Positions 7,359-42,024 of a DNA stretch of 64,000 bases are shown here, piece by piece. The translations under genes were made by a program, and so were the position numbers. Where the stretch lies: positions 372,001-436,000 of the forward strand of contig JAZGUH010000331.1 of assembly GCA_037893225.1 (NCBI GenBank), given 5' to 3'. Source of the stretch: Hippasteria phrygiana. Lineage: Eukaryota; Echinodermata; Asteroidea; Valvatida; Goniasteridae. Positions within the stretch are counted from its first letter, which is position 1, and every line of letters starts with the position of its first letter. Below the pieces are notes generated by a model. It saw nothing but the letters and a program-made list of their open reading frames with translations, was not told the origin of the DNA and searched no databases.

Positions 7359-7364
7359 TGGGAA

Positions 7365-7781
7365 ATGGCCGCGGCTCAAGGCGCAGATCCTGGAATCAGA
7401 CCAGTTCTGGAGTATGTCACCCTCAACCATCGACCCCAAAGGCGAGAAAGAAGAAAGGAACTCCCTGAAACAACAGCTCTTCTTCATGAATGGGAGAAAT
7501 TACTGCTAAAGCAGGGGATACTGTACAGGAAGCGAGGATCTCAGCATCAGCTCGTTCTCCCTCAAAAGCACAGACAGCGGGTGTACCATGAGCTGCACAA
7601 CAAAATGGGCCACCTCGGAGCAGACAGGGTACTCAGCCTTGCTCGAGACCGGTTCTACTGGCCACACATGCAGAAGGACATCGAGCATTATGTCACTCAA
7701 GAGTGCCCCTGCCTAAAGCAGCATGCAACAAGCCACCACAGAGCCGTTCGAGTTGGTGTCCATCAACTTCATCCACCTTGA
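7365..7781 (+). pseudogene. Ty3/gypsy integrase N-terminal zinc-binding domain
   Basis: The segment contains the HHCC domain: HELHNKMGHLGADRVLSLA, then FYWPHMQKDIEHYV and CPCLKQ supplying the cysteines. This places the pol order as PR-RT-RNaseH-IN. The frame is open through to a TGA at 7,779, but the core continues in another frame from about 7,741, which shows a frameshift at 7,735-7,745. Confidence 0.85.
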
Positions 7782-16584: not shown

Positions 16585-19098
16585 CAAAGTGAACAAAGAA
16601 ACTGGCACGAGCGGGATTCGAACCTGCGACCTCCGGGTTACCGTACCGGCGCTCTACCAACTGAGCTATCTTGCCCTATGTTGGCGGTCTCCCAAATTGT
16701 CAGTATCTTTGTTCGAGTGGGCGCTAGTCAGAAGTCATAAACCCAGAATGCCGTGTAGCCAGGGATCACACCCAATTTTACGATACAACCTGGGAAGCGA
16801 CATTGTGGAGATCACTCAATGAGGATACGACTTTTTAACTTATAATTCGTCAAACAATCCACAAGGGAAACTGACTAGGTAAATCTGAATACATTTTCAA
16901 AGTGAACAAAGAAACTGGCACGAGCGGGATTCGAACCTGCGACCTCCGGGTTACCGTACCGGCGCTCTACCAACTGAGCTATCTTGCCCTATGTTGGCGG
17001 TCTCCCAAATTGTCAGTATCTTTGTTCGAGTGGGCGCTAGTCAGAAGTCATAAACCCAGAATGCCGTGTAGCCAGGGATCACACCCAATTTTACGATACA
17101 ACCTGGGAAGCGACATTGTGGAGATCACTCAATGAGGATACGACTTTTTAACTTATAATTCGTCAAACAATCCACAAGGGAAACTGACTAGGTAAATCTG
17201 AATACATTTTCAAAGTGAACAAAGAAACTGGCACGAGCGGGATTCGAACCTGCGACCTCCGGGTTACCGTACCGGCGCTCTACCAACTGAGCTATCTTGC
17301 CCTATGTTGGCGGTCTCCCAAATTGTCAGTATCTTTGTTCGAGTGGGCGCTAGTCAGAAGTCATAAACCCAGAATGCCGTGTAGCCAGGGATCACACCCA
17401 ATTTTACGATACAACCTGGGAAGCGACATTGTGGAGATCACTCAATGAGGATACGACTTTTTAACTTATAATTCGTCAAACAATCCACAAGGGAAACTGA
17501 CTAGGTAAATCTGAATACATTTTCAAAGTGAACAAAGAAACTGGCACGAGCGGGATTCGAACCTGCGACCTCCGGGTTACCGTACCGGCGCTCTACCAAC
17601 TGAGCTATCTTGCCCTATGTTGGCGGTCTCCCAAATTGTCAGTATCTTTGTTCGAGTGGGCGCTAGTCAGAAGTCATAAACCCAGAATGCCGTGTAGCCA
17701 GGGATCACACCCAATTTTACGATACAACCTGGGAAGCGACATTGTGGAGATCACTCAATGAGGATACGACTTTTTAACTTATAATTCGTCAAACAATCCA
17801 CAAGGGAAACTGACTAGTCAGTTTCCCTTGTGGATTGTTTGACGAATTATAAGTTAAAAAGTCGTATCCTCATTGAGTGATCTCCACAATGTCGCTTCCC
17901 AGGTTGTATCGTAAAATTGGGTGTGATCCCTGGCTACACGGCATTCTGGGTTTATGACTTCTGACTAGCGCCCACTCGAACAAAGATACTGACAATTTGG
18001 GAGACCGCCAACATAGGGCAAGATAGCTCAGTTGGTAGAGCGCCGGTACGGTAACCCGGAGGTCGCAGGTTCGAATCCCGCTCGTGCCAGTTTCTTTGTT
18101 CACTTTGAAAATGTATTCAGATTTACCTAGTCAGTTTCCCTTGTGGATTGTTTGACGAATTATAAGTTAAAAAGTCGTATCCTCATTGAGTGATCTCCAC
18201 AATGTCGCTTCCCAGGTTGTATCGTAAAATTGGGTGTGATCCCTGGCTACACGGCATTCTGGGTTTATGACTTCTGACTAGCGCCCACTCGAACAAAGAT
18301 ACTGACAATTTGGGAGACCGCCAACATAGGGCAAGATAGCTCAGTTGGTAGAGCGCCGGTACGGTAACCCGGAGGTCGCAGGTTCGAATCCCGCTCGTGC
18401 CAGTTTCTTTGTTCACTTTGAAAATGTATTCAGATTTACCTAGTCAGTTTCCCTTGTGGATTGTTTGACGAATTATAAGTTAAAAAGTCGTATCCTCATT
18501 GAGTGATCTCCACAATGTCGCTTCCCAGGTTGTATCGTAAAATTGGGTGTGATCCCTGGCTACACGGCATTCTGGGTTTATGACTTCTGACTAGCGCCCA
18601 CTCGAACAAAGATACTGACAATTTGGGAGACCGCCAACATAGGGCAAGATAGCTCAGTTGGTAGAGCGCCGGTACGGTAACCCGGAGGTCGCAGGTTCGA
18701 ATCCCGCTCGTGCCAGTTTCTTTGTTCACTTTGAAAATGTATTCAGATTTACCTAGTCAGTTTCCTTTGTGGATTGTTTGACGAATTATAAGTTAAAAAG
18801 TCGTATCCTCATTGAGTGATCTCCACAATGTCGCTTCCCAGGTTGTATCGTAAAATTGGGTGTGATCCCTGGCTACACGGCATTCTGGGTTTATGACTTC
18901 TGACTAGCGCCCACTCGAACAAAGATACTGACAATTTGGGAGACCGCCAACATAGGGCAAGATAGCTCAGTTGGTAGAGCGCCGGTACGGTAACCCGGAG
19001 GTCGCAGGTTCGAATCCCGCTCGTGCCAGTTTCTTTGTTCACTTTGAAAATGTATTCAGATTTACCTAGTCAGTTTCCCTTGTGGATTGTTTGACGAA
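16585..19098. repeat. Palindromic array of eight 313-bp tRNA-like SINE units
   Basis: Four head-to-tail units (period exactly 313 bp) carry tRNA-like heads on the minus strand at 16,603-16,675, 16,916-16,988, 17,229-17,301 and 17,542-17,614. They are followed by four mirror-image units with heads on the plus strand at 18,017-18,089, 18,330-18,402, 18,643-18,715 and 18,956-19,028. The axis is TGACTAGTCA (17,811-17,820). Units are almost base-identical; one C-to-T change is visible at about 18,765. The block is flanked by GTATAATTTTTT (16,571-16,584 and 19,099-19,110), a likely target-site duplication. The tRNA fold is threonine-like (GGT in the loop) but lacks U33 and has acceptor and anticodon-stem mismatches. 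Confidence 0.9.
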
Positions 19099-19104
19099 GT
19101 ATAA

Positions 19105-21037
19105 TTTTTTGCTATAAATAAGGCTGAGGAGGAGGAGGAGGAGGAGGAGGAGGAGGAGGAGGAGGAGGAGGAGGAGGAGACGACGGGCAGTGACATCCCC
19201 AAGCCCAGTCGACAGAGGAAGGAACGGCGTCGCCAACCACCACCTCCAAAGAAGGCGAGAAGAGGGAAAAAACAGCTGGATCCGGAGTCGGACAACGATC
19301 CTGACCCACCATCAGTGCTCCAGCCCGACATCCCCCCTGATGTACATGGATGGACGAGGACTCTGGCAGATGTCTTCGTGCGACCCTTCAATGGGAAAAA
19401 ACCACCTGGACCCAAGTTCAGACAGAGTGAGTCACCGCTCCACTACTTCTTACAGTTTTTTCCCCTGTCCTTGTTGCTGTCCATCGTCGAGTGGACGAAT
19501 CTGAGCCTGAGGGAGGCAGTGAAGACAACAACAACGATCCAGGAGATTCGTGCGTGGTTTGACGTCCATATCCTTATGGGCCTCAACAAGCTTCCAAACT
19601 ACCGTGACTACTGAAGTACACACCCTGCCCTAAGAAACAGCATGATTTCCACGACGATGTCTCGCAATAGGTTCGACACCATCAACACCTACCTAGCATG
19701 TAACGACCCAGACAAAGACCCGGCACTGATCAGAAGTAAGACCAAGCAACATCGATTCAAGAGAAAGAACCCCCTGTACCCCCTCCAGCCGCTCTGGAAC
19801 AAGGTCAGACGCAGATGCATCAACCGCTACCATGCCCTGCGTGAGCTCTCTATCGATGAAGCCATGATCAAATACCGAGGGTACAAGGCCAACATAAAAA
19901 AAGTATTCATGCCCCTCAAACCCATCCGGGTAGGCTTACAAATATATGTCTTGGTGGAGTCGGCTACAGGAGCCGTGCTGAACTTCATGGAGCATCCCTG
20001 GGGAAAGAAAAAGATGACGGCAATTGCCACTAAAGTTGCTAAGCACCATCGTAGCCGATACCATCACATCTTTACTGACCGCCTCTACACTTCAGTCTCC
20101 TTGGCCAGAGTGTTCCTAGCCCGCCGAATCTACCTCACTGGGGCAGTAAAGAGTAACAGCCGAGGTCTGCCCAAGGATCTGGCAGGGAGACTGAAGGGGA
20201 TGAGACGGGTAAAACGAGGCACTTTCTATTCCAGGCAGAATGGCCAGATGGTCGTCACTGCCTGGAAAGACAGCAAGGCTATGATGGTGCTGTCCACAGC
20301 CCACCAGGGATCCTGACCACCACAATGTTCAGCGAAAGGTGCCCGATGACAGCGGCTGGAGAAAAACCAAAGTCATCCCAGCTCCCCCTCAAGTCATTGA
20401 TTACATGGCCAACATGGGAGGGGTGGACCGTGGAGATCAGCTCCGTGCCTACTACACCTGCTCCCGCAAAGCACAATACTGGTGGAAGAAGGTCTTGTAC
20501 TTCCTGATAGATATCAGCAGGGTTAACGGCTACATTTGCTACATCAAGCACCGCCACCAGGATGTACATGTACCGGTCGATACATCAGCTGACAGCTCCG
20601 GTGATGGCGATGCTGGTCCAACTAACACCAAGACCAAGCACCTCAGCCTCAGCCACACCAAGTTCATCCTGGAGTTGGGCACGGAGCTGATCGATGGCTA
20701 TGCTGGGGGTTCAACAAATCCCCAGTGTAAAGCCGCCACGACCATTCCAGGTCACAACATCAAGAACCACTACAGTACCACGATGCCTGGCCTCTACCCC
20801 AAGCGTTGCCAGTGGTGCCTGCACAACAACGGCGTGACGAAATCGGGCAGGGCAAAGACAACCCGCAGTGGCTGTGCAGTCTGCATGGTCAACCTATGTA
20901 CCGGGCCATGCTTCATGAAGTTCCACCAGGCTATCACCCGTCCCGACCCTACCTCAACCACAAGCACAACAGACAGCACCGAGGAGTCATCAGCCCCCGA
21001 ACCCCCAAAGAAGAAGAAGACGACAAAAAGTACATGA
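19105..21037 (+). pseudogene. piggyBac-like transposase (PGBD family), broken
   Basis: A DDE transposase of the piggyBac family that would cut and paste at TTAA. The N-terminus is acidic, with a poly-Glu run from a GAG microsatellite (19,126-19,178). The catalytic aspartates are visible in LSIDEAMIKYRG, HIFTDRLYTS and MGGVDRGDQ. A C-terminal cysteine-rich domain (RCQWC, CAVCMVNLC, CFMKFH; 20,790-20,940) would bind the termini. A TGA at 19,612-19,614 interrupts frame 1, where a Trp codon is expected. A frameshift near 20,310 moves the last third to another frame. The natural start is uncertain because a SINE array sits directly upstream. Confidence 0.85.
19126..19178 (+). repeat. (GAG)n microsatellite
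   Basis: About 17 GAG triplets at the 5' end of the transposase frame, encoding poly-Glu on the plus strand. Confidence 0.95.
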
Positions 21038-27769: not shown

Positions 27770-28179
27770 CCAGGAGTAGTATAGAAGGGCCAATACTACC
27801 CCACTTTCAAAATTGCTGTATATACCCACACCAAATTTCTGTAAAAATTTGAAGAAAAAAAACCCCAAAATCTCAAAACCTCAAATTTCTCTCTCTCTCC
27901 CTCTCTCTCTCTCGATTTCTCTCAAATTTCGTCGTATCTACCCACACCAAATTTTTATAAAAATTTAAAAAAATTGGAAAAATATAGCGTTCTAAGACTC
28001 TTCTGATTTTTTAACAAATTTCGTTGTATATACCCACAACAAATTTTTGTAAAAATCGATAAAATCGAACTATTTTTCCTACAGCCCCACCTGTATCATC
28101 ATCACCTTAAAATTCTCATGCAAAAAAAAAACCCCAAAACCCCCAAACCTCTCTCTCTATTTTAGGGGACAAAAAAAAA

Positions 28180-28226
28180 TTAAATATTTTTTAATATTTT
28201 AAATAAAATAAACGTCTATTATAAAG
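28180..28226 (+). promoter_or_regulatory. AT-only leader upstream of left polB (duplicated in right arm)
   Basis: An almost pure A/T stretch with AATATTTTAAATAAAATAAA, then CTATTATAAAG immediately before the ATG. The identical sequence precedes the right polB (about 41,265-41,311, minus strand). It is a plausible promoter by composition and position only. Confidence 0.35.
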
Positions 28227-31200
28227 ATGGAAAACAGAATGATACCGGCGATAGGCTACACACGTTGGCCAAAATACTGCTTGAAAAAATACATCGACAA
28301 ATACGCCATTACGTTGGGCCCACCAACCGGACGCGATGGTGCATATATCAGACGAGACTTTCTATCGGCCATAAAAAAGAACGAAGCGCTTTATAAAAAT
28401 TTACGATCTAAGTCTAAAGAATCGCTAGAACATTTAATCGCGGATAAGCATATTCCGCTGGGCGATCCTACCGGAAGAAGGGGTCAACACATTAAAAAAG
28501 ATTTAGAATCCTCCATACGACGATACTATAAAAAACCCGACGAAGAACTCGTCCCCCTGATTTTTAACGAAACAGCTCCGAGACCATTCAGAAATTATTT
28601 ACGTAATTACGAGATGAATATCAACAGAATTCTCGTAGATCCTCTAGCATTTTTTAATGAAAACGAGCAAAAAATTGTAGAAACATTGAAAGGCGCGCTA
28701 AACGAATTTAGAAGCTTTAAATTTCAACTCGCATTAAAAGCGGCGTTGAGAAAATATAATCTTGCGAACGACACTTTTGTCGAAGACGCGAGCATGTTTT
28801 TTGGGTTTCAATCGACCGCATTAAACGAAGACGAAATAGAAAACCAAGTACGAGAACAGATAGAGTTTATAATCGAAAAAATAGAAAAATTTCAAACAAA
28901 CGGAAGCGGTTGGGTCGTTTACGATTTAAAGGCGCTCTACATCAACGTTTCTAGATACCAGCCGATAAGAGGCAGTTCCTACATTCCACTACCCCCTCAC
29001 ATAATCCATAAAAAGGCAGTCGTCAACGTTAAAAACAAAGATCAGGAGTGTATCAGATGGGCGTTGAGGCCGCCCTAGGATTATTTACTCCCTCCGTCAA
29101 AGAATCGATTAAAAACAACCCCAACTATACTATTCACTACGAAAGGAATTCTATCTTCGAAGAAGACGACGGATTAGATTTTAAGAACGTAGCGTTTCCA
29201 ACCCCCATCACGGATATTGACAAGATCGAAAAACAGAACGGTCTCGCCATTAACGTTTTTGGTTCCGAAAATAAAATTTTCCCTCTGAGAATAACTACTC
29301 AACGAAAACCGGTCATCAATCTACTGCTGTTTTCTCAAGGAGATAATAATCATTATTGTTGGATAAAAAACCTCGACCGTTTGTTGTCTAAAGAAACTAA
29401 ACACGGCCACCACATCTATTTTTGTATGAGATGCCTACAACATTTTAGTAGACAAGATATTTTAGACAGACACGAGATAGATTGTAGGGGCGTTAGCCAA
29501 ACCCCGGCTTTAGCTGTATTACCCGACTCAACCAACAACGTTCTAAAATTCAAAAACTTTAAAAATAAACAACCGGCGCCTTTTACTATATACGCCGACT
29601 TTGAAAGTATCTTAGTACCCTCTACACCCTTCGCGAGTACGCAACCCCCGCGCACTAAAAAGACTCACGAACATAAAGCTTGCGGTTACGCTTATATTAT
29701 AATCGGGCCCGACGGACGAGTCTTAGGCGATCCCAAGACGTATAGAGGAGCGAACGCGACATCACATTTCTTAAATCGTTTACTAGCCGAAAAAGACAAA
29801 ATCAACGAAATATTCTCAAATCCTAAACCCATGATTTTTACGACCGAAGACGAGTTAGCTCATAACGACGCTAAAAATTGCTGGATTTGCGAGTACCCCC
29901 TTCAAAAAAAAACCAACACTTGCGAATGTACGCACCCGATAGATATAAATTTAGATCATCTCGGTAAAAAAACTAACGAAGAACTATTAGAAATAATCGC
30001 GGATAAACACATCGAGTTGGACGAACCAACGGGGGAAAAAGGTCGGTATATTAAAGCGGACTATATATCCGCTATAGAAAGCAAGTTTTTAAAGGGGGAC
30101 GAGCTCGAAGGGAAATATCCAACAAAATTCTGCTATAGATGCGTCAAAAAGATTTGCGCGTTTAGAAAAGTAAGAGACCATTGCCACATCACCGGCAAGT
30201 ATAGAGGAGCCGCGCACATGTGCTGTAACTTAAAATTGCGAATCGCGCCCAACAAAACGACAATACCGGTCATCTTTCACAACTTAGAAAATTACGACGC
30301 CCATTTGATTATGCAGAGTATTTCGGAAACCGACGGAAAACTAAAGTGTATAGCTAAAACGTCCGAAAAATATATTTCATTTTCGATAGGTCAACTCAGA
30401 TTTTTAGATTCATTTAATTTCTTATCAACGTCGTTGGAACGATTGGTAGCCGCGTGTCCGATAGACGCGTTTAAGTATATCGATAAAGCCGTTGTACCTG
30501 GGACCAACCCAGAGTCTGTCAGCCCCCTAGAACCTTTGTATGAGGACGTTGACGCGAGTACTCTAGAGAAAGACGAAGACGAAGTTAACGATTACAACGT
30601 AATCGGAAAACTGATAACCTACTTGGCAGAGTCTAACAGCCCCGTATCACCTTTGTGCGATGGTTACTTGGCAGAGTCTTCACCCGAAGACGAAGACGAC
30701 GAAGCGCCACCCATCGACCTCGATAAACGAGATCTTTTAATTAAAAAGGGTGTATATCCCTACGAGTATATGGACAGCTTTGAACGATTTAGCGAAGCTA
30801 CTCTGCCGCCGAAAGAATCTTTTTACAGCGGTCTAACGGATAAACACATAAGCGACTCTGACTACGAACACGCTAAAAAAGTATGGCGTACCTTCGACAT
30901 CAAAAACATGGGCGAATATCACGACCTCTACGTATTGACCGACGTACTATTACTATCCAGCGTATTCGAGAATTTTAGAAAAATCTGTATAGCAAATTAT
31001 AAGTTGGATCCGTGCCATTATTTTACATCACCCGGCCTAAGTTGGGACGCTTTATTAAAACACTCTAAAGCCAAATTAGAACTCTTGACCAATATAGATC
31101 AGCATTTATTTGTAGAGAAAGGAACCAGAGGGGGAATATCTAGCGTGGGCTCACTTCGCTACGCCGAGGCCAACAACTCATACCTAAAAGATTACGATCC

Positions 31201-32516
31201 GAGCAAACCCAACTCGTATATTTCGTATCTAGACGCCAACAACCTCTACGGATGGGCCATGAGTCAACCATTGCCGATCTCAGACTTTAGGTGGATCGAC
31301 GAAAAGAAATTAGGTTTGTTTACCGCCGAATATATATCGTCTCTAGCCGACGACTCTCTTTGGGGCTATATTCTTGAAGTGGATTTAGACTATCCAACCG
31401 AACTACACGACTTACACAACGGTTATCCTTTAGCGCCCGTAAACCGAGTCATACCTTTAGAATCGATGAGTCCTTATCAGCTAGAATCGATGGAAAAAAC
31501 AGACTCTAAACCGTCGAACGAAACTAAGTTGGTAGCGACGGGTGGACCGAGAAAGAAGTACGTACATGTACTTCATTATAGAAATCTAAAATTTTACCTC
31601 GCTCACGGTTTAGAACTAACTATTACGTAGGGTTTTAAAGTTTACTCAAAAACCTTGGATGAAATCGTACATCGATAAAAATACCCAACTCAGAAAAGAA
31701 GCTAAATCCGATTTTGAAAAAGACTTTTTTAAATTGATGAACAACTCGGTATTTGGCAAAACTATGGAAGACGTTAGAAAGCGAATGGATACTCACTTGT
31801 GTAGAGCCCACGAAGAAGATAGAATTAGTCGTCTGGTGGCTAAGCCCAATTACAACGGTAGGACAATTTTTGAACGCTGTAATCTATTAATGATAAACAT
31901 GTATAAAACCCGAGTTGTTTTAAACAAACCCGTCTATTGCGGTATGAGTATTTTAGACTTATCGAAGCTTTTAATGTACGAATTTTATTACGATAAACTA
32001 AAAAAGACGTACGAAGACAAAGTCGATTTGATTTATACCGATACGGACTCGTTGCTCTTACGTATTGAAACTGAAGACGTTTATCTCGATATGGAAAAAG
32101 ACAAAGACTCGTACGATTTTAGCAACTACGAGAAAGACCACTTTTTATACGACGATTCAAACAAGAAAATAATAGGCAAGTTCAAGGACGAATGCGGCGG
32201 AAAACCAATCAAAGAAGTGGTTTGCATCAGATCAAAAATGTACTCTATTTTCATGGACGATAAGAAGAACATTAAGAAATCAAAAGGAGTCAAAAAGTAC
32301 GTCGTTTCCAACGCGATAACTCATCAAGATTATAAAGACTGTCTGTTTAACTCTAGAGTTTATCGACACGATATGAACACGTTGAGGAGCGACAAACATA
32401 TCGTGAACTCTTTAACTCAAAATAAGGTATCGCTCAATCCCAGAGACGACAAACGGTATATCTTAGACGATGGAATTCATACTCTGATGCACGATCATTA
32501 CGCTATACGAGCGTAG
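28227..32516 (+). pseudogene. Family B DNA polymerase, left arm copy, frame-broken
   Basis: Same gene as 36,990-41,264, split into three open segments (28,227-29,078; 29,048-31,630; 31,659-32,516) by a 1-nt loss near 29,068 and a net 2-nt loss near 31,622 relative to the right arm. All exonuclease and polymerase motifs remain present across the pieces (DFE at about 29,599, HNLENYD near 30,280, YLDANNLYG near 31,228, NNSVFGK near 31,741, YTDTDS near 32,035). Six codons near 29,800 are absent from the other copy. It would not make a full-length enzyme. Either this arm is decaying or the assembly has indel errors. Confidence 0.9.
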
Positions 32517-32527
32517 CTTCGCGAGTA
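32506..32527. repeat. GC-rich dispersed palindrome (CGAGCGTAGCTTCGCGAG)
   Basis: An imperfect palindrome overlapping the polB stop codon. Related copies occur at 32,576-32,597, 33,204-33,221, 36,650-36,671 (inside an ORF), about 36,917-36,930 and 36,976-36,997, with a partial one at 39,851-39,860 (inside polB). It stands out in AT-rich DNA and can form a hairpin. Confidence 0.7.
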
Positions 32528-32701
32528 TCGAACAAACGTTTAAAAATCGTTATATAGGAATACAGGCTGCCTAGCTACTCGCGAAGCCGGGCTCGTATAG
32601 GAATACACCAGAAATTCAAAAAATCATCAGATTTCAAAAGGGAAACCCCCTTTATGATAAAAAATGAGAAAAAAATAATAAAATAATTATATATATAAAT
32701 C

Positions 32702-33061
32702 ATGTGCAAGTGGTTAAACGTCGGAAAGCTAACTACGTGCGAAAAAGATGGAGACCCGTGGTGTATCGATCATTTCGGCAGACGAGATCTAGCGCCCAAA
32801 ACATGTTTAATTTGTGGCTGCGGAACTAAATCAACTACGCAACTTTGTACGAATCATTCTTTAAAAGAAAGACAGCGACTAGAACGCATAGAAAAGCTGG
32901 CTAAAACCAAGTATAAAAGAGTTATAAAAGAACTCTACTTTAAATTTAACCCCGAAAAATGTCGATGTTCTTGGTTACTTTGTAGTAGCTCAAAACGCTG
33001 TAATAAACCGACCTCAAAGTGCGACCCTAGATATTGCGATATGCACGCGAACCGTTTTTAA
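32702..33061 (+). CDS. Cysteine-rich putative zinc-binding protein
   Basis: This 119-aa protein has more than a dozen Cys and several His in pairs (CLICGCGTKSTTQLCTNH around residues 35-52, then KCRCSWLLC, RYCDMH near the C-terminus), suggesting two or more zinc sites. A basic central region (KERQRLERIEKLAKTKYKR) could bind nucleic acid. The first 12 codons (MCKWLNVGKLTT) lie in the left inverted repeat and are shared with the ORF at 36,185-36,781. Cys2 and Cys13 fit the Cys pattern, so this is probably the original owner of the shared start. After the TAA stop the same frame stays open to 33,205 and encodes more CxxC pairs. Family unknown. Confidence 0.7.
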   Translation: MCKWLNVGKLTTCEKDGDPWCIDHFGRRDLAPKTCLICGCGTKSTTQLCTNHSLKERQRLERIEKLAKTKYKRVIKELYFKFNPEKCRCSWLLCSSSKRCNKPTSKCDPRYCDMHANRF

Positions 33062-33205
33062 AAAATCGGTAGAGCCTTAACCCCCTGCGGCCGCTGTGGT
33101 TGTGGTACTTTTTCTAAAAATGGTAATTGTACCAAGTGTAATAAAATTGAACACCGTAGTTATAAAGCTTATTCAAAATCGATATATGAATATCGAAATA
33201 TTTAG
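33062..33205 (+). pseudogene. In-frame Cys-rich extension after the stop of the preceding ORF
   Basis: Directly after the TAA at 33,059-33,061, 47 further codons in the same frame encode CGRCGCG and CTKC motifs and a Lys/Tyr-rich end, then TAG. The stop sits in a T5A6 run. This is a nonsense mutation, a run-length change, or stop readthrough. Confidence 0.5.
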
Positions 33206-33261
33206 CGTAGCTACGTTCGTAGGATGTACTAGTATACGACTAGACCTACAAAAATTTAAAA

Positions 33262-33301
33262 GTATAAACGTATAAACGTATAAACGTATAAACGTATAAA
33301 C
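33262..33301 (+). repeat. Five perfect 8-bp repeats GTATAAAC
   Basis: Directly upstream of the PCNA-like gene. Each unit contains TATAAA, so it may be a promoter array. The next ATG is at 33,307. Confidence 0.8.
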
Positions 33302-33306
33302 GTAAA

Positions 33307-34067
33307 ATGAGCTGCGAAATATTTAACGTGACTATAATGAACGGTTATATTCTAAAGTCTGTTAAATAGATATGCTGAGTTCTTTTATGCAAAAAACTCA
33401 ATTTAGGATAGATAATACCGGTTTATATCACGTATACTACGACGAAAATACAAACGTTTTCGTAGACATAGTATTTCCTAGAGATCAATTCTTCAAATTT
33501 GATTATACAAAAAATAAACCAACGTGTTTCTTTCTAAATTTAAAGCATTTACACAAAATTACAAAAAGTATAAAACGTAAAGAATCTGTAGATTTGAAAA
33601 TGACTTCCGATAATCTAATTATCACAGTCTATAATGATTATACTAGTTCTAAAGTATATAAAATCGTTATAGGATTGATAGAAGAATGCGAAAAAACTCA
33701 AATACCTAGCCAAGACCACTACTTTGAAGCTGAGGTTATAGAAAGCGTTTGTTTTTCTAAAATTAAAAATATGATAAATATGAGCAAATCGTTAGACTTG
33801 CGCGTACATAAAAATTATTTATCGATCTATTGCAAAGAAGGTCAGTTATATAGTTCTTCTTTAAATATTGGAATTAAAGATGACTTTCCGTTATACGATT
33901 GTGCGTTCGATAGCAAAAACTTTGCCGTCGTATTAAAAATATGTAATTTAGAAAAGCAGATTCAAATATTTGCCCCAAAAGATGAAGACGATCCTCTTAA
34001 AATTGCTATATTAGCCGGTAATTTAGGAGTCGTAACTTTGTATATAAAAAGACTAGCTATTTCGTAG
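33307..34067 (+). CDS. PCNA-like sliding clamp, 5' frame break
   Basis: The main ORF (33,372-34,067, 231 aa) has the look of a PCNA/viral clamp: RIDNTGLYHVYY in the first domain, interdomain region around residues 105-125, and a C-terminal PLKIAILAGNLGVVTLYIKR resembling the conserved final strand of PCNA. Clamps encircle DNA and tether polymerases. The first ~20 residues of the family are missing from this ORF; a matching segment starts at ATG 33,307 (VTIMNGYILKSV) in another frame and stops at 33,369. A frame break therefore lies at about 33,364-33,371. Five GTATAAAC repeats precede it. It converges on and overlaps the VLTF3-like frame by a few bases at 34,057-34,067. Confidence 0.7.
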
Positions 34068-34966
34068 GAATCCATTTCCAACCTAGGTACTCGAAAGCTT
34101 TCATCATAGCTTCTTCGTGTTCCTCTTCTTTTATTTTTGTTTTTAAAATGTAAAAGTCATCCTTTTTGCACTTGTAAGAATTTTTTTGCAATAATTTATA
34201 CAATTTATAATTTACGTAACGAATTTATCCTAACGTTGTTATTATTACAATATCGTAAAGCTTCTTCTAATTTGTCAAAATCTATCAATAAAACGTCGAG
34301 ATATTTACTTATGTCCGGACATTTTATTCCGGTAATTAAATTATAAATTAAATTTATATCGTCGTAAAAACTTCCCAGATTATTTTCCGATAAAAACATA
34401 TATACTTGATCTTTAGTGACACAATTTTTATCTTTGATATTTGCGGATAATTTATGATGTTTTATTTCGTTATTTATAATTTTTACGACGTTAAATATTT
34501 TCGTTTGATCTACGTTTTGATCTCCTTGAAATTTTTTAATAGCGTCTCTAAAATGACCCTTTCTAGTATACGTATATTTATTGGATAAATTCGCTCTATC
34601 TACGTCTTTAAAACTAGGGCAGAAATCTATAATATTCTGTTCGGTCTTGCATACTGAACAATACGTCCCATCCTCGTCTCTTATAAAGTTCGTATTTCCA
34701 CATTCGCAGTAGATGGGCTGAGTTTTTAATAACGCCAAGTCGATATCTATATATTTCGACGCAATCAGTAAATAGTCTCGTTTTATTTTTTGCCTTTTGT
34801 CCGAATCGTTTTTATAACTGAGAGACTTTTTATAACCGCTGTTTTTCCACCGATCGAAAATTTCGCAAGTTTGCCAAATGAAACAAAATTGTTGATGACT
34901 CGATAAACTGTTTAGAATTTTTAAATTTAAATTAGCGATATCTATGGTAGCATCGATCTCCATCAT
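34057..34966 (-). CDS. VLTF3-like late transcription factor, 3' frame break
   Basis: The 253-aa ORF (34,205-34,966) has a zinc-ribbon-like CECG...CSVC at residues 87-106, followed by YTYTRKGHFRDAIKKFQ at about 131-147. This order and motif recall the VLTF3 (A2L-like) late transcription factors of poxviruses and other large DNA viruses, which direct transcription of late genes. The ORF ends early at 34,205. An overlapping frame stays open from about 34,225 to a stop at 34,057 and ends in EYLGWKWIPTK, which looks like the expected C-terminus, so a frameshift at about 34,205-34,230 is likely. Identification is by motif memory, not search. Confidence 0.7.
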
Positions 34967-35007
34967 TTAAAGAGCGTGATAATTCAATTAACAACTTTTT
35001 TATAACG

Positions 35008-35114
35008 TTAAACGATAAAGTCTTCGTCAGAATCGTTTGGCTCGTAAAGTTTAAACGTTGACTCTTTTATATTATAGCACGAAAAAAAGAGCGATATAGT
35101 AGATTCTTTGAACT
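35008..35114 (-). pseudogene. C-terminal remnant of an acidic-tailed ORF
   Basis: A 34-codon open stretch ending EPNDSDEDFIV-stop sits between the VLTF3-like start and the 11-bp array. There is no ATG, and upstream frames enter the array and hit stops. It may be the end of a gene whose body was lost when the array expanded. Confidence 0.3.
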
Positions 35115-35877
35115 ATAGATGAACTGTAGATAACTGATAGATGACCTATAGATGAACTGTAGATGAGCTGTAGATGACCTATAGATGAATTATAGATAAC
35201 TGATAGATAACTGCAGATGAACTGATAGATAACTGATAGATAACTGATAGATAACTTATAGATGAACTATAGATGACTTATAGATAACTGATAGATGATC
35301 TATAGATGACTTATAGATGACTTATAGATAACTGATAGATAACTGATAGATAACTTATAGATGAACTATAGATAACTGATAGATGACTTATAGATAACTG
35401 ATAGATGAACTATAGATGACTTATAGATGACTTATAGATAAATGATAGATGAACTATAGATGAACTATAGATGAACTATAGATGAACTATAGATAACTGA
35501 TAGATAACTGATAGATGAACTATAGATGAACTATAGATAACTGATAGATGAACTATAGATAACTGATAGATGAACTATAGATGAACTATAGATGAACTAT
35601 AGATGAACTATAGATGAATTATAGATAACTGATAGATGAACTATAGATGACTTATAGATAACTGATAGATAACTGATAGATGAACTATAGATGACTGATA
35701 GATAACTGATAGATGAACTATAGATAACTGATAGATGACTTATAGATGACCTATAGATGAATTATAGATGAACTGTAGATGAACTATAGATAACTGATAG
35801 ATGACTTATAGATAACTGATAGATGAACTGTAGATGAACTATAGATGACTTATAGATGAACTATAGATGAACTGATA
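35108..35877. repeat. 11-bp variant-repeat array (about 70 copies)
   Basis: The unit is GATGAACTATA with a few recurring variants (GATAACTGATA, GATGACTTATA, GATGAACTGTA). The period is 11 bp throughout, close to one helical turn. The array lies in the unique centre of the element, between the VLTF3-like gene and the death-fold genes. Confidence 0.95.
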
Positions 35878-35891
35878 CTCGGTTTTTATTT

Positions 35892-36197
35892 TCAAAAGAC
35901 ATCGTTATACGCTATAGCTAAATCCGATCTGCCTATCTGGTGCATGATGCGCCGAAATATAGTATTTATATCGTCGTAACCTCTGTGGTCTGAATAAAAT
36001 TTATAACAGGTCATAAAAGCTTTTTCGGTCGTTTTTTTATAATCGGCATCTATTTGTTCTACGCAATTATAGTTCATTCCAGCGTATGTACAAAATTGTC
36101 TCCAATCTATACCTAATTCATCGGCTAGTTTCGTTAAAGTATCCATTATACCTCGTTTATCTTTACTTATTAAATAAGTCGGTGTCAACGGACCCAT
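35892..36197 (-). CDS. Death-domain protein
   Basis: Of 101 aa, residues ~19-95 read as a Death domain. LTKLADELGIDWRQFCTYAG (helices 1-2), then an acidic Cys/Glu helix, then the RGYDD segment and FRRIMHQIGRSDLA (helices 5-6) match the usual spacing of LA..LG.DW, RG and GR.DLA features. Death domains make homotypic contacts in apoptosis and innate immune signalling. A copy in a virus-like element could be an adaptor decoy or a captured host domain (inference). The start codon overlaps the stop of the upstream ORF by 13 nt (ATGGGTCCGTTGA). The two could be separate coupled genes or one frameshifted gene. The array follows its 3' end. Confidence 0.7.
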   Translation of the reverse strand: MGPLTPTYLISKDKRGIMDTLTKLADELGIDWRQFCTYAGMNYNCVEQIDADYKKTTEKAFMTCYKFYSDHRGYDDINTIFRRIMHQIGRSDLAIAYNDVF

Positions 36198-36781
36198 ATA
36201 TCCAAGGCATAGCCAGCGTTGTCAGCGATATTTCTAGATCTAGTTTTGAAGAATTTCAACTTGTAAGTATATGGAGTTAGTCCGGAGCTGATCAAGATCT
36301 TCTTGAGATCTTGTTTATAGTCTTTATCGAAACATGCCTTGAGATACCAAATATACGTTATCATTCTAACTTTTGTATAATGATCATATTTAGACGACTT
36401 GATGTACTCTAAGAATTCTACATTTATTCCCATAAAGATCGCGACCTTTTCCATATGTTGTATAACGGCTTTAGTCGCAATTTCGTCCAACATGAGAAAA
36501 ATATTCTCTTCATGATCGGTTATAACGTCTGGCATTTTTATAGTATTATCGTACAATCTACATTTATCAGCTACATCCACAAAAATATCGTAATACTTAT
36601 CCTTTACTTTTAAATTAGTTGGCCTCGTTGCGCTACTAGTCTTTAAAGTACTCGCGTAGCTACGCTCGTAGGGTGTATCGAAAGATGTTACGTTACTTAA
36701 AGAACGATCCAAAGGTGTCGCAAAAAATCCAGTATTGAAATCTATCGTAGTTAGCTTTCCGACGTTTAACCACTTGCACAT
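36185..36781 (-). CDS. Possible second death-fold protein with captured start
   Basis: This is a 198-aa ORF. Residues 1-12 (MCKWLNVGKLTT) are encoded within the right inverted repeat and are identical to the start of the Cys-rich ORF; residues 13-198 are unique. A GC-rich palindrome insert encodes residues about 37-46. Residues ~95-168 (IQHMEKVAIFMGINVEFLEY ... LKKILISSGL) look all-helical with a death-domain-like spacing, but this is weaker than in the neighbouring ORF. The true N-terminus was probably replaced when the inverted repeat grew. It overlaps the next ORF by 13 nt. Confidence 0.55.
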   Translation of the reverse strand: MCKWLNVGKLTTIDFNTGFFATPLDRSLSNVTSFDTPYERSYASTLKTSSATRPTNLKVKDKYYDIFVDVADKCRLYDNTIKMPDVITDHEENIFLMLDEIATKAVIQHMEKVAIFMGINVEFLEYIKSSKYDHYTKVRMITYIWYLKACFDKDYKQDLKKILISSGLTPYTYKLKFFKTRSRNIADNAGYALDIWVR

Positions 36782-39700
36782 GATTTATATATATAATTAT
36801 TTTATTATTTTTTTCTCATTTTTTATCATAAAGGGGGTTTCCCTTTTGAAATCTGATGATTTTTTGAATTTCTGGTGTATTCCTATACGACGTATTTTTT
36901 TACTCGGTCGTACGCCCGGCTTCGCGAGTAGCTAGGCAGCCTGTATTCCTATATAACGATTTTTAAACGTTTGTTCGATACTCGCGAAGCTACGCTCGTA
37001 TAGCGTAATGATCGTGCATCAGAGTATGAATTCCATCGTCTAAGATATACCGTTTGTCGTCTCTGGGATTGAGCGATACCTTATTTTGAGTTAAAGAGTT
37101 CACGATATGTTTGTCGCTCCTCAACGTGTTCATATCGTGTCGATAAACTCTAGAGTTAAACAGACAGTCTTTATAATCTTGATGAGTTATCGCGTTGGAA
37201 ACGACGTACTTTTTGACTCCTTTTGATTTCTTAATGTTCTTCTTATCGTCCATGAAAATAGAGTACATTTTTGATCTGATGCAAACCACTTCTTTGATTG
37301 GTTTTCCGCCGCATTCGTCCTTGAACTTGCCTATTATTTTCTTGTTTGAATCGTCGTATAAAAAGTGGTCTTTCTCGTAGTTGCTAAAATCGTACGAGTC
37401 TTTGTCTTTTTCCATATCGAGATAAACGTCTTCAGTTTCAATACGTAAGAGCAACGAGTCCGTATCGGTATAAATCAAATCGACTTTGTCTTCGTACGTC
37501 TTTTTTAGTTTATCGTAATAAAATTCGTACATTAAAAGCTTCGATAAGTCTAAAATACTCATACCGCAATAGACGGGTTTGTTTAAAACAACTCGGGTTT
37601 TATACATGTTTATCATTAATAGATTACAGCGTTCAAAAATTTTCCTACCGTTGTAATTGGGCTTAGCCACCAGACGACTAATTCTATCTTCTTCGTGGGC
37701 TCTACACAAGTGAGTATCCATTCGCTTTCTAACGTCTTCCATAGTTTTGCCAAATACCGAGTTGTTCATCAATTTAAAAAAGTCTTTTTCAAAATCGGAT
37801 TTAGCTTCTTTTCTGAGTTGGGTATTTTTATCGATGTACGATTTCATCCAAGGTTTTTGAGCAAACTTTAAAACCCTACGTACTTTAGTTAGTTCTAAAC
37901 CGTGAGCGAGGTAAAATTTTAGATTTCTATAATGAAGTACATGTACGTACTTCTTTCTCGGTCCACCCGTCGCTACCAACTTAGTTTCGTTCGACGGTTT
38001 AGAGTCTGTTTTTTCCATCGATTCTAGCTGATAAGGACTCATCGATTCTAAAGGTATGACTCGGTTTACGGGCGCTAAAGGATAACCGTTGTGTAAGTCG
38101 TGTAGTTCGGTTGGATAGTCTAAATCCACTTCAAGAATATAGCCCCAAAGAGAGTCGTCGGCTAGAGACGATATATATTCGGCGGTAAACAAACCTAATT
38201 TCTTTTCGTCGATCCACCTAAAGTCTGAGATCGGCAATGGTTGACTCATGGCCCATCCGTAGAGGTTGTTGGCGTCTAGATACGAAATATACGAGTTGGG
38301 TTTGCTCGGATCGTAATCTTTTAGGTATGAGTTGTTGGCCTCGGCGTAGCGAAGTGAGCCCACGCTAGATATTCCCCCTCTGGTTCCTTTCTCTACAAAT
38401 AAATGCTGATCTATATTGGTCAAGAGTTCTAATTTGGCTTTAGAGTGTTTTAATAAAGCGTCCCAACTTAGGCCGGGTGATGTAAAATAATGGCACGGAT
38501 CCAACTTATAATTTGCTATACAGATTTTTCTAAAATTCTCGAATACGCTGGATAGTAATAGTACGTCGGTCAATACGTAGAGGTCGTGATATTCGCCCAT
38601 GTTTTTGATGTCGAAGGTACGCCATACTTTTTTAGCGTGTTCGTAGTCAGAGTCGCTTATGTGTTTATCCGTTAGACCGCTGTAAAAAGATTCTTTCGGC
38701 GGCAGAGTAGCTTCGCTAAATCGTTCAAAGCTGTCCATATACTCGTAGGGATATACACCCTTTTTAATTAAAAGATCTCGTTTATCGAGGTCGATGGGTG
38801 GCGCTTCGTCGTCTTCGTCTTCGGGTGAAGACTCTGCCAAGTAACCATCGCACAAAGGTGATACGGGGCTGTTAGACTCTGCCAAGTAGGTTATCAGTTT
38901 TCCGATTACGTTGTAATCGTTAACTTCGTCTTCGTCTTTCTCTAGAGTACTCGCGTCAACGTCCTCATACAAAGGTTCTAGGGGGCTGACAGACTCTGGG
39001 TTGGTCCTAGGTACAACGGCTTTATCGATATACTTAAACGCGTCTATCGGACACGCGGCTACCAATCGTTCCAACGACGTTGATAAGAAATTAAATGAAT
39101 CTAAAAATCTGAGTTGACCTATCGAAAATGAAATATATTTTTCGGACGTTTTAGCTATACACTTTAGTTTTCCGTCGGTTTCCGAAATACTCTGCATAAT
39201 CAAATGGGCGTCGTAATTTTCTAAGTTGTGAAAGATGACCGGTATTGTCGTTTTGTTGGGCGCGATTCGCAATTTTAAGTTACAGCACATGTGCGCGGCT
39301 CCTCTATACTTGCCGGTGATGTGGCAATGGTCTCTTACTTTTCTAAACGCGCAAATCTTTTTGACGCATCTATAGCAGAATTTTGTTGGATATTTCCCTT
39401 CGAGCTCGTCCCCCTTTAAAAACTTGCTTTCTATAGCGGATATATAGTCCGCTTTAATATACCGACCTTTTTCCCCCGTTGGTTCGTCCAACTCGATGTG
39501 TTTATCCGCGATTATTTCTAATAGTTCTTCGTTAGTTTTTTTACCGAGATGATCTAAATTTATATCTATCGGGTGCGTACATTCGCAAGTGTTGGTTTTG
39601 TGTTGAAGGGGGTACTCGCAAATCCAGCAATTTTTAGCGTCGTTATGAGCTAACTCGTCTTCGGTCGTAAAAATCATGGGTTTAGGATTTGAGAATTTTT

Positions 39701-41716
39701 CGGCTAGTAAACGATTTAAGAAATGTGATGTCGCGTTCGCTCCTCTATACGTCTTGGGATCGCCTAAGACTCGTCCGTCGGGCCCGATTATAATATAAGC
39801 GTAACCGCAAGCTTTATGTTCGTGAGTCTTTTTAGTGCGCGGGGGTTGCGTACTCGCGAAGGGTGTAGAGGGTACTAAGATACTTTCAAAGTCGCCGTAT
39901 ATAGTAAAAGGCGCCAGTTGTTTATTTTTAAAGTTTTTGAATTTTAGAACGTTGTTGGTTGAGTCGGGTAATACAGCTAAAGCCGGGGTTTGGCTAACGC
40001 CCCTACAATCTATCTCGTGTCTGTCTAAAATATCTTGTCTACTAAAATGTTGCAGGCATCTCATACAAAAATAGATGTGGTGGCCGTGTTTAGTTTCTTT
40101 AGACAACAAACGGTCGAGGTTTTTTATCCAACAATAATGATTATTATCTCCTTGAGAAAACAGCAGTAGATTGATGACCGGTTTTCGTTGAGTAGTTATT
40201 CTCAGCGGGAAAATTTTATTTTCGGAACCAAAAACGTTAATGGCGAGACCGTTCTGTTTTTCGATCTTGTCAATATCCGTGATGGGGGTTGGAAACGCTA
40301 CGTTCTTAAAATCTAATCCGTCGTCTTCTTCGAAGATAGAATTCCTTTCGTAGTGAATAGTATAGTTGGGGTTGTTTTTAATCGATTCTTTGACGGAGGG
40401 AGTAAATAATCCTAGGGCGGCTCTCAACGCCCATCTGATACACTCCTGATCTTTGTTTTTAACGTTGACGACTGCCTTTTTATGGATTATGTGAGGGGGT
40501 AGTGGAATGTAGGAACTGCCTCTTATCGGCTGGTATCTAGAAACGTTGATGTAGAGCGCCTTTAAATCGTAAACGACCCAACCGCTTCCGTTTGTTTGAA
40601 ATTTTTCTATTTTTTCGATTATAAACTCTATCTGTTCTCGTACTTGGTTTTCTATTTCGTCTTCGTTTAATGCGGTCGATTGAAACCCAAAAAACATGCT
40701 CGCGTCTTCGACAAAAGTGTCGTTCGCAAGATTATATTTTCTCAACGCCGCTTTTAATGCGAGTTGAAATTTAAAGCTTCTAAATTCGTTTAGCGCGCCT
40801 TTCAATGTTTCTACAATTTTTTGCTCGTTTTCATTAAAAAATGCAAGAGGATCTACGAGAATTCTGTTGATATTCATCTCGTAATTACGTAAATAATTTC
40901 TGAATGGTCTCGGAGCTGTTTCGTTAAAAATCAGGGGGACGAGTTCTTCGTCGGGTTTTTTATAGTATCGTCGTATGGAGGATTCTAAATCTTTTTTAAT
41001 GTGTTGACCCCTTCTTCCGGTAGGATCGCCCAGCGGAATATGCTTATCCGCGATTAAATGTTCTAGCGATTCTTTAGACTTAGATCGTAAATTTTTATAA
41101 AGCGCTTCGTTCTTTTTTATGGCCGATAGAAAGTCTCGTCTGATATATGCACCATCGCGTCCGGTTGGTGGGCCCAACGTAATGGCGTATTTGTCGATGT
41201 ATTTTTTCAAGCAGTATTTTGGCAAACGTGTGTAGCCTATCGCCGGTATCATTCTGTTTTCCATCTTTATAATAGACGTTTATTTTATTTAAAATATTAA
41301 AAAATATTTAATTTTTTTTTGTCCCCTAAAATAGAGAGAGAGGTTTGGGGGTTTTGGGGTTTTTTTTTTGCATGAGAATTTTAAGGTGATGATGATACAG
41401 GTGGGGCTGTAGGAAAAATAGTTCGATTTTATCGATTTTTACAAAAATTTGTTGTGGGTATATACAACGAAATTTGTTAAAAAATCAGAAGAGTCTTAGA
41501 ACGCTATATTTTTCCAATTTTTTTAAATTTTTATAAAAATTTGGTGTGGGTAGATACGACGAAATTTGAGAGAAATCGAGAGAGAGAGAGGGAGAGAGAG
41601 AGAAATTTGAGGTTTTGAGATTTTGGGGTTTTTTTTCTTCAAATTTTTACAGAAATTTGGTGTGGGTATATACAGCAATTTTGAAAGTGGGGTAGTATCG
41701 GCCCTTCTATACTACT
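36746..41716 (-). repeat. Right terminal inverted repeat (4,971 bp)
   Basis: Mirror of the left arm. The inner edge is at the base of codon 12 of the ORF starting at 36,781. It contains 23 extra bases around 36,890-36,915 absent from the left arm. It carries the intact polB. Confidence 0.95.
36990..41264 (-). CDS. polB: Family B DNA polymerase (protein-primed type), intact copy
   Basis: This 1,424-aa protein has exonuclease motifs DFE (458-460), HNLENYD (679-685) and YVLTD (896-900), and polymerase motifs YLDANNLYG (995-1003, motif A), KLMNNSVFGK (1164-1173, motif B), YTDTDS (1265-1270, motif C) and a GVKKY segment (1349-1353). A long segment with KYVHVLHYRNLKFYLAHG (1105-1122) lies between motifs A and B, as in protein-primed enzymes. 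Accessory parts are a C2HC finger (C400, C403, H416, C420), a CxxC group at 547-562, an HNH/endonuclease VII-like DHCHITGKYRGAAHMCCN (645-662), an acidic insert (750-825) and three PTGxxG repeats (about 20-50, 70-99, 585-612). It would replicate the element. It is close in architecture to Polinton and adintovirus polymerases. The residue before DFE is Gly here and Ala in the left copy. Confidence 0.95.
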   Translation of the reverse strand: MENRMIPAIGYTRLPKYCLKKYIDKYAITLGPPTGRDGAYIRRDFLSAIKKNEALYKNLRSKSKESLEHLIADKHIPLGDPTGRRGQHIKKDLESSIRRYYKKPDEELVPLIFNETAPRPFRNYLRNYEMNINRILVDPLAFFNENEQKIVETLKGALNEFRSFKFQLALKAALRKYNLANDTFVEDASMFFGFQSTALNEDEIENQVREQIEFIIEKIEKFQTNGSGWVVYDLKALYINVSRYQPIRGSSYIPLPPHIIHKKAVVNVKNKDQECIRWALRAALGLFTPSVKESIKNNPNYTIHYERNSIFEEDDGLDFKNVAFPTPITDIDKIEKQNGLAINVFGSENKIFPLRITTQRKPVINLLLFSQGDNNHYCWIKNLDRLLSKETKHGHHIYFCMRCLQHFSRQDILDRHEIDCRGVSQTPALAVLPDSTNNVLKFKNFKNKQLAPFTIYGDFESILVPSTPFASTQPPRTKKTHEHKACGYAYIIIGPDGRVLGDPKTYRGANATSHFLNRLLAEKFSNPKPMIFTTEDELAHNDAKNCWICEYPLQHKTNTCECTHPIDINLDHLGKKTNEELLEIIADKHIELDEPTGEKGRYIKADYISAIESKFLKGDELEGKYPTKFCYRCVKKICAFRKVRDHCHITGKYRGAAHMCCNLKLRIAPNKTTIPVIFHNLENYDAHLIMQSISETDGKLKCIAKTSEKYISFSIGQLRFLDSFNFLSTSLERLVAACPIDAFKYIDKAVVPRTNPESVSPLEPLYEDVDASTLEKDEDEVNDYNVIGKLITYLAESNSPVSPLCDGYLAESSPEDEDDEAPPIDLDKRDLLIKKGVYPYEYMDSFERFSEATLPPKESFYSGLTDKHISDSDYEHAKKVWRTFDIKNMGEYHDLYVLTDVLLLSSVFENFRKICIANYKLDPCHYFTSPGLSWDALLKHSKAKLELLTNIDQHLFVEKGTRGGISSVGSLRYAEANNSYLKDYDPSKPNSYISYLDANNLYGWAMSQPLPISDFRWIDEKKLGLFTAEYISSLADDSLWGYILEVDLDYPTELHDLHNGYPLAPVNRVIPLESMSPYQLESMEKTDSKPSNETKLVATGGPRKKYVHVLHYRNLKFYLAHGLELTKVRRVLKFAQKPWMKSYIDKNTQLRKEAKSDFEKDFFKLMNNSVFGKTMEDVRKRMDTHLCRAHEEDRISRLVAKPNYNGRKIFERCNLLMINMYKTRVVLNKPVYCGMSILDLSKLLMYEFYYDKLKKTYEDKVDLIYTDTDSLLLRIETEDVYLDMEKDKDSYDFSNYEKDHFLYDDSNKKIIGKFKDECGGKPIKEVVCIRSKMYSIFMDDKKNIKKSKGVKKYVVSNAITHQDYKDCLFNSRVYRHDMNTLRSDKHIVNSLTQNKVSLNPRDDKRYILDDGIHTLMHDHYAIRA

Positions 41717-42024
41717 CCAGGAAGAGGAGTTTTAGGCATTTTTATAAAGGTGTCAGGAGCGCGCTCATGATGGCATATAGTGGATCATTACAGTACAAGC
41801 TTTTCAAATTCAAATTGTTGATATTAAATGTCTATAATAATTACGCTTCACATAATTACTTGTTTTTGTGATGGTGTCCCGGGTAACCTGTAGTCGTTGG
41901 TGGGAGTACACATGTACTAATAACAATACGCAGCTACTATCGCACTGCTTGGCCCAGGAAGCAACGCTTGCCTTGCATAATATGCCGCAACTAATTGCAA
42001 CACTAAAGAGACATTGAGGTGATA

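Follow-up and report, generated by a model that had tools for sequence, protein, structure and literature searches.

How does a DNA element with a polymerase gene in each of two long inverted arms, and with no integrase or capsid gene that we could recognize, come to be integrated in dozens of copies in an animal genome? The question is raised by a 64,000-nucleotide stretch of the sea star Hippasteria phrygiana (GenBank assembly GCA_037893225.1, contig JAZGUH010000331.1, positions 372,001–436,000 of the forward strand), referred to as the window in the following, which contains an insertion of 13,942 bp (window positions 27775–41716) with AGTAGTAT at its start and ATACTACT at its end. An earlier note on this DNA had described a palindromic virus-like element in this place; its coordinates proved exact, and its idea is largely supported by the analysis described here. 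The window palindrome is one copy of a multicopy mobile element family, which is related to Polintons and in which the integrase and capsid of Polintons were not found. We consider it moderately probable that it represents a damaged young copy of a family with Polinton-type ends that lives as a satellite, or hitch-hiker, of the Polintons resident in the same genome.

Each arm consists of about 450 non-coding bases at its outer end, followed by a family B DNA polymerase (PolB) gene that is oriented inwards. Between the arms, a center of about 4 kb harbors genes for a Cys-rich, zinc-finger-like protein, a PCNA-like sliding clamp and a homolog of the late transcription factor VLTF3, and, beyond an array of 11-bp units, a death-domain gene (Table 1). 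Further copies of the arms, for which the earlier note had proposed a search, are plentiful in the same genome (944,056,580 bases in 1285 contigs; all counts are lower bounds; C and L numbers are our handles for genomic loci and sequence pieces, respectively). When the best 74 of 1528 PolB candidates were scored, 60 of them paired up as 30 facing pairs with 3.1–7.3 kb between the matches, and a VLTF3 match lies between the two polymerases in 25 of these pairs, the others being C860, C103, C439, C272 and C326. The polymerase frame spans at least 1380 amino acids (aa) without a stop in 50 of the 74 matches, and in 14 pairs both frames do so; the right arm of the window is found among the 14 unpaired matches because the scored matches do not include its broken left PolB. 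Most of the scored copies therefore take the form of a palindrome with one polymerase per arm. VLTF3 yielded 116 matches, 52 of which (the window included) cover at least 246 of its 253 residues with at least 93% identity and no stop. An assembly artefact, which the earlier note had considered as a way in which its idea could fail, is unlikely given these 30 pairs, the differences between the window arms (13 substitutions and 4 internal indel runs) and the target site duplications that flank them; the pairs and the duplications make a chance arrangement improbable as well. A giant-virus fragment is ruled out by the size, the ends, the duplications and the absence of other large-virus genes in the scanned open reading frames (ORFs).

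Seven copies were read at both ends (the window, C229, C814, C244, C607, C89 and C92), and all seven have the ends AGTAGTAT...ATACTACT and are flanked by perfect target duplications of 5 bp, the sequences of which differ between copies; random 5-mers, by comparison, match in 0.14% of trials. In the window and in C92, a sixth duplication base matches if the first A of the element is counted. Outside this count stand C883, of which one end was read, and the old, degraded copies C137 and C397, in whose fetched pieces these ends were not found. For vertebrate Mavericks, (AG)3//(CT)3 and (AGT)2//(ACT)2 ends have been reported, along with duplications of 6 bp and terminal repeats that measure 46–1447 bp (PMC8097293; papers are cited here for the sections available to us). 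The second of these end motifs is present in all seven copies, the duplication being 5 bp rather than 6 bp long in each of them. Many copies are young: over the first 4,700 nt, the two arms of six copies differ at 0, 2, 5, 11, 13 (the window) and 233 positions, C92 being left out since its left arm has a diverged PolB. Furthermore, the observed/expected ratio of CpG is 1.27–2.05 in 24 two-kb intervals inside the element, compared with 0.26–1.21 in 93 outside, which suggests that the element has so far been short-lived in a CpG-depleting genome.

By its homologs, its motifs, its position in a tree and the predicted fold of its N-terminal part, the PolB of the arms is assigned to the adintovirus/Polinton class and is predicted to be of the protein-primed type. 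Among 7994 scored candidates, 5396 are homologs at E <= 0.001, with named proteins of Elysia crispata and Oculina patagonica among the listed ones. The window protein contains DFE, DANNLYG, NNSVFGK and YTDTDS, which we take to be the exonuclease and polymerase motifs of PolB. No PolB family was flagged in it by Pfam-A at E up to 1, and the PDB gave 0 matches with the whole protein as query. A model of residues 100–440 (pLDDT, the predicted local distance difference test score, 88.7) has an adintovirus protein as its best fold match (E 1.6e-24, template modelling score 0.47), followed by a MELD virus polymerase and densovirus polymerases in BFVD and, more weakly, by mavirus. The N-terminal part of adintovirus PolB has been described as OTU-like (PMC11071296); for the corresponding part of the element PolB, the listed PDB matches are all Y-family little-finger domains, so that an OTU-like part is barely probed. 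A quick tree was built from 123 rows: the 120 best-listed homologs, the window protein and two IMG/VR contigs. In this tree, which comes with a long-branch warning, the window protein clusters with two database proteins, P0014 and P0015, at a Shimodaira–Hasegawa-like approximate likelihood ratio of 100, with 118 others outside. This agrees with the distinct PolB lineage that had been proposed. Two contigs of IMG/VR were obtained with a 13-row PolB alignment, and one of them, L001, has an A32 ATPase and an rve integrase according to Pfam; no relative was found in IMG/VR with a single VLTF3, PCNA or PolB sequence, a VLTF3 alignment, a three-row PolB alignment or two DNA motifs. In one copy, C92 (L017/L018), the left PolB is 42–61% identical to that of the window and the right one 95%, with a matching 5-bp duplication; this copy may be a recombinant between element lineages.

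The centers point to a second source of genes. We read 14 of them whole or largely: the window, C229, C883, C814, C92, C89, C244, C607, C182, C529:1319862, C40, C860, C272 and C529:798430. PCNA and VLTF3 matches are present in 11, while C860, C272 and C529:798430 have neither and retain the zinc-finger and death-domain genes. VLTF3, by which Nucleocytoviricota are recognized, is identified by Pfam (1.5e-14 in the window, 8.9e-25 in another copy) and has 13 database relatives with up to 52% identity. The window clamp matches Pfam PCNA_N (1.9e-4), the PDB chain 1iz4_A, a PCNA (5.8e-7), and the NCBIfam sliding clamp model (3.3e-10, under the cut-off of that model); none of the 83 candidates in a protein search reached E <= 0.001. 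In addition, five centers contain a 162–168-aa ORF that is a homolog of the RNA polymerase subunit RPB5, namely C40, C860, C272 (twice), C89 and C529:1319862 (broken); the window lacks it. Three of these ORFs match Pfam PF01191 (9e-20 to 1e-19), and RPB5/RPABC1 chains are matched in the PDB (best 1.2e-17). The uptake of large-DNA-virus transcription genes suggested earlier is thus borne out by VLTF3 and extended by RPB5 in some copies. Large RNA polymerase subunits, a major capsid protein and a D5 primase have no Pfam match in the six window ORFs or in nine ORFs from other centers. The death domain is recognized by Pfam (2.3e-5) in the second, 101-aa ORF of two death-fold ORFs only; fragments of the first, 198-aa ORF match 0 Pfam families, and its structure model is unusable (pLDDT 35.6). 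The Cys-rich ORF of the window has no Pfam match.

Comparison with the seven other copies first fetched reveals that the window copy is damaged. Its VLTF3 ORF has 253 aa, compared with 302–303 aa in all seven others, and its PCNA 231 aa, being shorter at the start than the 252 aa found in six of the seven. The Cys-rich gene encodes 167 aa in four of the seven (L005 and L008 are cut by the locus edge, and L010 has 123 aa), and the death-domain gene is a single ORF of 287–323 aa in five. The missing C-terminus of VLTF3 and a second Cys-rich stretch are found in other frames of the window, so that its Cys-rich, VLTF3 and death-domain genes are broken relative to other copies. The central gene set reported earlier is therefore confirmed, with its two death-fold ORFs being one gene, and of the two full-length polymerase genes the right one is open and the left one split (283, 857 and 285 aa). 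In short, the window copy looks young but dead. Two ideas were dropped along the way. The N-terminal codons of the 198-aa ORF are not junctional debris, as the same start opens the 287–323-aa ORF of other copies; and a TAAAT late promoter, suggested by this motif near the window PCNA, VLTF3 and zinc-finger/death-domain starts (as against 11 of the 124 ATGs of the center), was abandoned because the PCNA of other copies starts 63 nt upstream, which places its TAAAT inside the gene and leaves two starts, too few for such a claim. In the C883 center (L035:285–3284), the death-domain region forms one 999-aa open frame, perhaps through the tandem-repeat array.

If the element lacks an integrase, another element may provide it. 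A complete Polinton, 14,087 bp long and bounded by identical ~283-bp terminal repeats, lies at C61:216828–230914, flanked by the 5-bp duplication CTTTG. The first ten bases of its ends, AGTAGTATAG, are those of the window element, and eight to ten are shared with five other copies compared. It encodes an A32 ATPase (5.9e-11), an rve integrase (2.6e-8), a DNA_pol_B_2 polymerase (1.6e-16) and a 431-aa capsid-like protein (Capsid_N 0.0028, below the cut-off), and a distant homolog of the zinc-finger protein of the element adjoins its PolB; this homology is based on tblastn (3.5e-6 and 2.5e-5), an off-frame BLASTP query having given no match. Its integrase is present in 14 copies of 99–100% identity among 120 scored matches, and A32-type ATPases give 21 matches genome-wide, 15 of them nearly equal in score. 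A second integrase family, 55–59% identical to that of the resident Polinton and mostly ~337 aa long and open (e.g. C613:163410), accounts for most of the best 120 of 2147 candidates; it apparently represents an abundant, young integrase-bearing element. Helper dependence appears plausible on these sequence grounds: the genome harbors a complete Polinton whose ends resemble those of the element and which, in one of two copies, has a duplication of equal length.

The element and this Polinton appear to be separate entities. The integrase, ATPase and capsid-like protein of the Polinton match neither the window element nor any of 35 element pieces (L003–L037), a comparison that covers these pieces and not every genomic copy. 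The earlier observation that no such genes are visible thus holds beyond the window, and copies with an integrase and a capsid gene between the same ends, which would have made the element a deleted Polinton, were sought and not found in these pieces. The six window ORFs have no Pfam match to an rve integrase, either. Two further ORFs of the Polinton, 226 and 476 aa long, match L027 only, which adjoins the degraded copy C397; apart from these and PolB, no element piece matched a Polinton gene in this comparison and, conversely, the Polinton that was read showed none of the PCNA, VLTF3, RPB5 and death-domain genes. None of the 120 scored integrase matches lies within ~25 kb of an element (coordinates compared by eye), and the A32 match closest to any VLTF3 match is 274 kb off (C152, an old copy). 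Finally, the window PolB is 56% identical to that of the Polinton over 595 palm residues, and the element is therefore no recent deletion derivative of it.

How might such a satellite work? Polymerases of the protein-primed class copy linear DNA from its ends. A linear form of the element would accordingly be copied from its termini by its own PolB, and one end, by serving as template for the other, would preserve the likeness of the long arms. The arm repeat extends into the first codons of both outer central genes; counted from the ATG, the overlap in eight copies is 163, 159, 3, 163, 36, 141, 163 and 123 nt, and in the window it spans 12 codons. This suggests that arm-to-arm copying reaches variable distances into these genes. 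Integration would be carried out in trans by a Polinton integrase, acting on the shared AGTAGTAT ends, and spread from cell to cell, if any, might use a Polinton capsid. PCNA and VLTF3, together with RPB5 in some copies, may form a late-transcription module that re-directs the cellular or helper RNA polymerase to the genes of the element, and the death-domain protein might dampen host cell death. In vaccinia virus, VLTF-3 is the A2L protein, and protein-primed polymerases are not known to need a clamp. The clamp of the element would thus fit better with VLTF3 than with PolB, also because the PCNA-like G8R protein of vaccinia has a role in late transcription, with A1L and A2L as interaction partners (PMC2674943), and the gp45 clamp of phage T4 activates late genes (PMC2988020). 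RPB5 is common to RNA polymerases I, II and III, going by the molecule names of the matched PDB chains, so that a spare copy could bias the host enzyme. In its widest form, the proposal would be that palindromic PolB satellites of Polintons, rather than encoding an RNA polymerase of their own, re-tool the cellular one by means of PCNA, VLTF3 and, in some copies, RPB5, borrow the integrase and capsid of a helper and lead a virophage-like life in an animal genome; we put this forward tentatively, as a possibility rather than an expectation.

Several observations weigh against the satellite reading. Several genes of the window copy are broken, and no transcription gene is universal, given that RPB5 occurs in only five of the 14 centers, once broken, and that PCNA and VLTF3 are missing from three; C89, moreover, has no death-domain match in the pieces fetched. 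A canonical PCNA-interacting peptide (PIP) box was found in no element protein, and in African swine fever virus a PCNA-like clamp is used in genome replication (PMC10653895), so that the clamp of the element could serve replication as well. On the side of the helper, the capsid-like assignment is weak, C151, the other Polinton copy read, lacks a perfect duplication, the ends of element and Polinton differ beyond the first 8–10 bases, and the other 106 of the 120 scored integrases, 55–84% identical to that of the Polinton, could include the true partner. Mobilization in trans, the use of the capsid and the role in transcription are all steps that we infer from sequences.

Three other explanations compete with a Polinton satellite. 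The element could be a functionless, defective deletion derivative of an autonomous Polinton, generated by copy-back of one end onto the other. Terminal copying can give rise to long inverted ends, and the inner edge of the repeat enters the two outer central genes at variable distances (3–163 nt), which speaks for this reading. We regard this origin as unlikely, since over the palm part its PolB shares 56% identity with that of the resident Polinton, the PCNA, VLTF3, RPB5 and death-domain genes have no counterpart in the Polinton read, and dozens of copies keep open frames that a mere defective would not need. Less probable still is one segment of a multipartite DNA virus, akin to the segmented half-replicon that the earlier note had envisaged, in which arms and PolB are shared and other segments supply capsid and integrase. 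Elements with the same arms and different centers do exist (C860, C272 and C529:798430 without PCNA and VLTF3, two of them with RPB5), three more pairs without VLTF3 (C103, C439 and C326) lie outside the centers read and also count against the satellite, and some members of the bidnavirus group have up to twelve segments (PMC11071296). Yet all three variant centers keep the zinc-finger and death-domain genes and so look like variants by gain and loss, and 0 of 35 pieces match the capsid-like protein, ATPase or integrase of the Polinton; with no tested capsid gene in any center read, the segmented virus is unsupported so far. Least probable of all, and improbable in our view, is a self-sufficient, helper-free element that integrates by an unrecognized enzyme of its own, for which its high copy number and an HNH/Endonuclease VII-like motif inside PolB (weak in the window protein, E 0.58) or the zinc-finger protein could be invoked, but L001 and the resident Polinton, both with an rve integrase, have the same PolB region, and the 5-bp duplication and AGTAGT ends are those of the integrase-bearing resident Polinton.

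As a putative satellite, the element combines features of several known systems. With Polintons/Mavericks, including the one in C61, it shares PolB, (AGT)2//(ACT)2 ends, a target duplication and a zinc-finger homolog beside PolB. Unlike them, it has arms of ~4.97 kb (compared with 46–1447 bp in vertebrates, PMC8097293, and ~283 bp in the resident Polinton), a PolB gene in each arm, and PCNA, VLTF3, RPB5 and death-domain genes, with no integrase, ATPase or capsid found. Endogenous adintoviruses of Amoebidium likewise join an adintovirus-type PolB to VLTF3, but the complete ones are ~30 kb long and bear capsid proteins and a Dam methyltransferase, and a palindromic PolB is not described in the sections available (PMC11244446). 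The hexon and rve integrase that mark adintoviruses were not found here, either in the six window ORFs (no Pfam integrase) or in the 35 pieces (0 matches to the Polinton integrase and capsid-like protein). A preprint reports adintovirus-type PolB and integrase combined with pox-like virion genes (PMC11071296). Bidnaviruses resemble the element in being small replicons with a Polinton-derived PolB and terminal inverted repeats (PMC4061559), a likeness echoed by the matches of its N-terminal PolB part to densovirus polymerases in BFVD. By contrast, the element is integrated in dozens of copies, and a parvovirus-type SF3 helicase and jelly-roll capsid have no Pfam match at E <= 1 in the six window ORFs and none in nine ORFs of other copies. 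The pairing of a PCNA-like with a VLTF3-like protein recalls the late-transcription set of vaccinia (G8R and A2L), whereas no large RNA polymerase subunits were seen in the element, which measures 14 kb. Mriyaviruses keep VLTF3 without RNA polymerase subunits (PMC11253617). Virophages and transpovirons, for which shared transcription signals are reported (PMC11464507), are also small elements expected to depend on a larger one; here, the helper would be a Polinton, PolB is found in both arms, and no capsid was found. Among the open PMC papers listed by our searches, no title or abstract opening describes a palindromic element that has PolB in each arm together with PCNA, VLTF3, RPB5 and death-domain genes.

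Polintons are thought to stand near the root of several groups of DNA viruses. A recently active, multicopy element that carries a PolB of the Polinton toolkit in both arms, together with transcription factors of giant viruses, displays gene exchange between these two worlds in one compact, countable system. The large number and young age of the copies make helper dependence, arm homogenization and the use of a clamp, VLTF3 and RPB5 without a viral RNA polymerase directly testable.

Table 1. Features of the palindromic element and its flanks, in window coordinates
Feature	Position	Strand	Remarks
Left target site duplication, CCAGG	27770..27774	.	Identical to 41717–41721
Left inverted arm, ~4.96 kb	27775..32737	+	Maverick-type end AGTAGTAT
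Terminal inverted repeat, 7-bp stem	27776..27799	+	Weak: -3.2 kcal/mol, z -1.23
Three 57-nt direct repeats	27800..28064	+	Terminal non-coding region; two are 68% and 82% identical to the reference copy
Left-arm PolB	28227..32516	+	Split in three ORFs (283, 857, 285 aa)
Hairpin just past PolB stop	32503..32602	+	RNA z -5.06
Cys-rich, zinc-finger-like ORF	32702..33061	+	119 aa; rest out of frame up to ~33205
PCNA-like sliding clamp	33372..34067	+	231 aa
VLTF3-like late transcription factor	34205..34966	-	253 aa; conserved C-terminus out of frame
Tandem array, 11-bp unit	35109..35873	.	~69 copies, 765 bp
Death-domain gene, C-terminal part	35892..36197	-	101-aa ORF; Pfam Death 2.3e-5
Death-domain gene, N-terminal part	36185..36781	-	198-aa ORF; first 12 codons inside arm
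Right inverted arm, ~4.97 kb	36747..41716	-
Right-arm PolB	36990..41264	-	Open, 1424 aa
Right target site duplication, CCAGG	41717..41721	.

At the level of non-coding features, an Rfam scan gave 0 matches inside the element. The right-arm copy of the hairpin past PolB has diverged and folds weakly (z -1.16) compared with the left one. A family of 22-nt palindrome-like motifs, TACTCGCGTAGCTACGCTCGTA, whose copies are 77–95% alike, lies near the ends of element genes (window positions 32506, 32576, 33200, 36649 and 36979); as an exact 20-base pattern, it has no match in IMG/VR. In the neighborhood of the element, at window positions 16581–19107, tandem units of 313 bp, with a tRNA-Thr gene in each, make up a nearly perfect head-to-head palindrome of 2.5 kb, possibly a tandem array similar to short interspersed nuclear elements or an assembly fold-back. 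Also nearby, at 5484–7778 and 19615–21034, are pieces of what we take to be a Ty3-type retrotransposon (RVT_1, RNase H and an integrase zinc-binding domain) and a presumably piggyBac-type transposase (DDE_Tnp_1_7).

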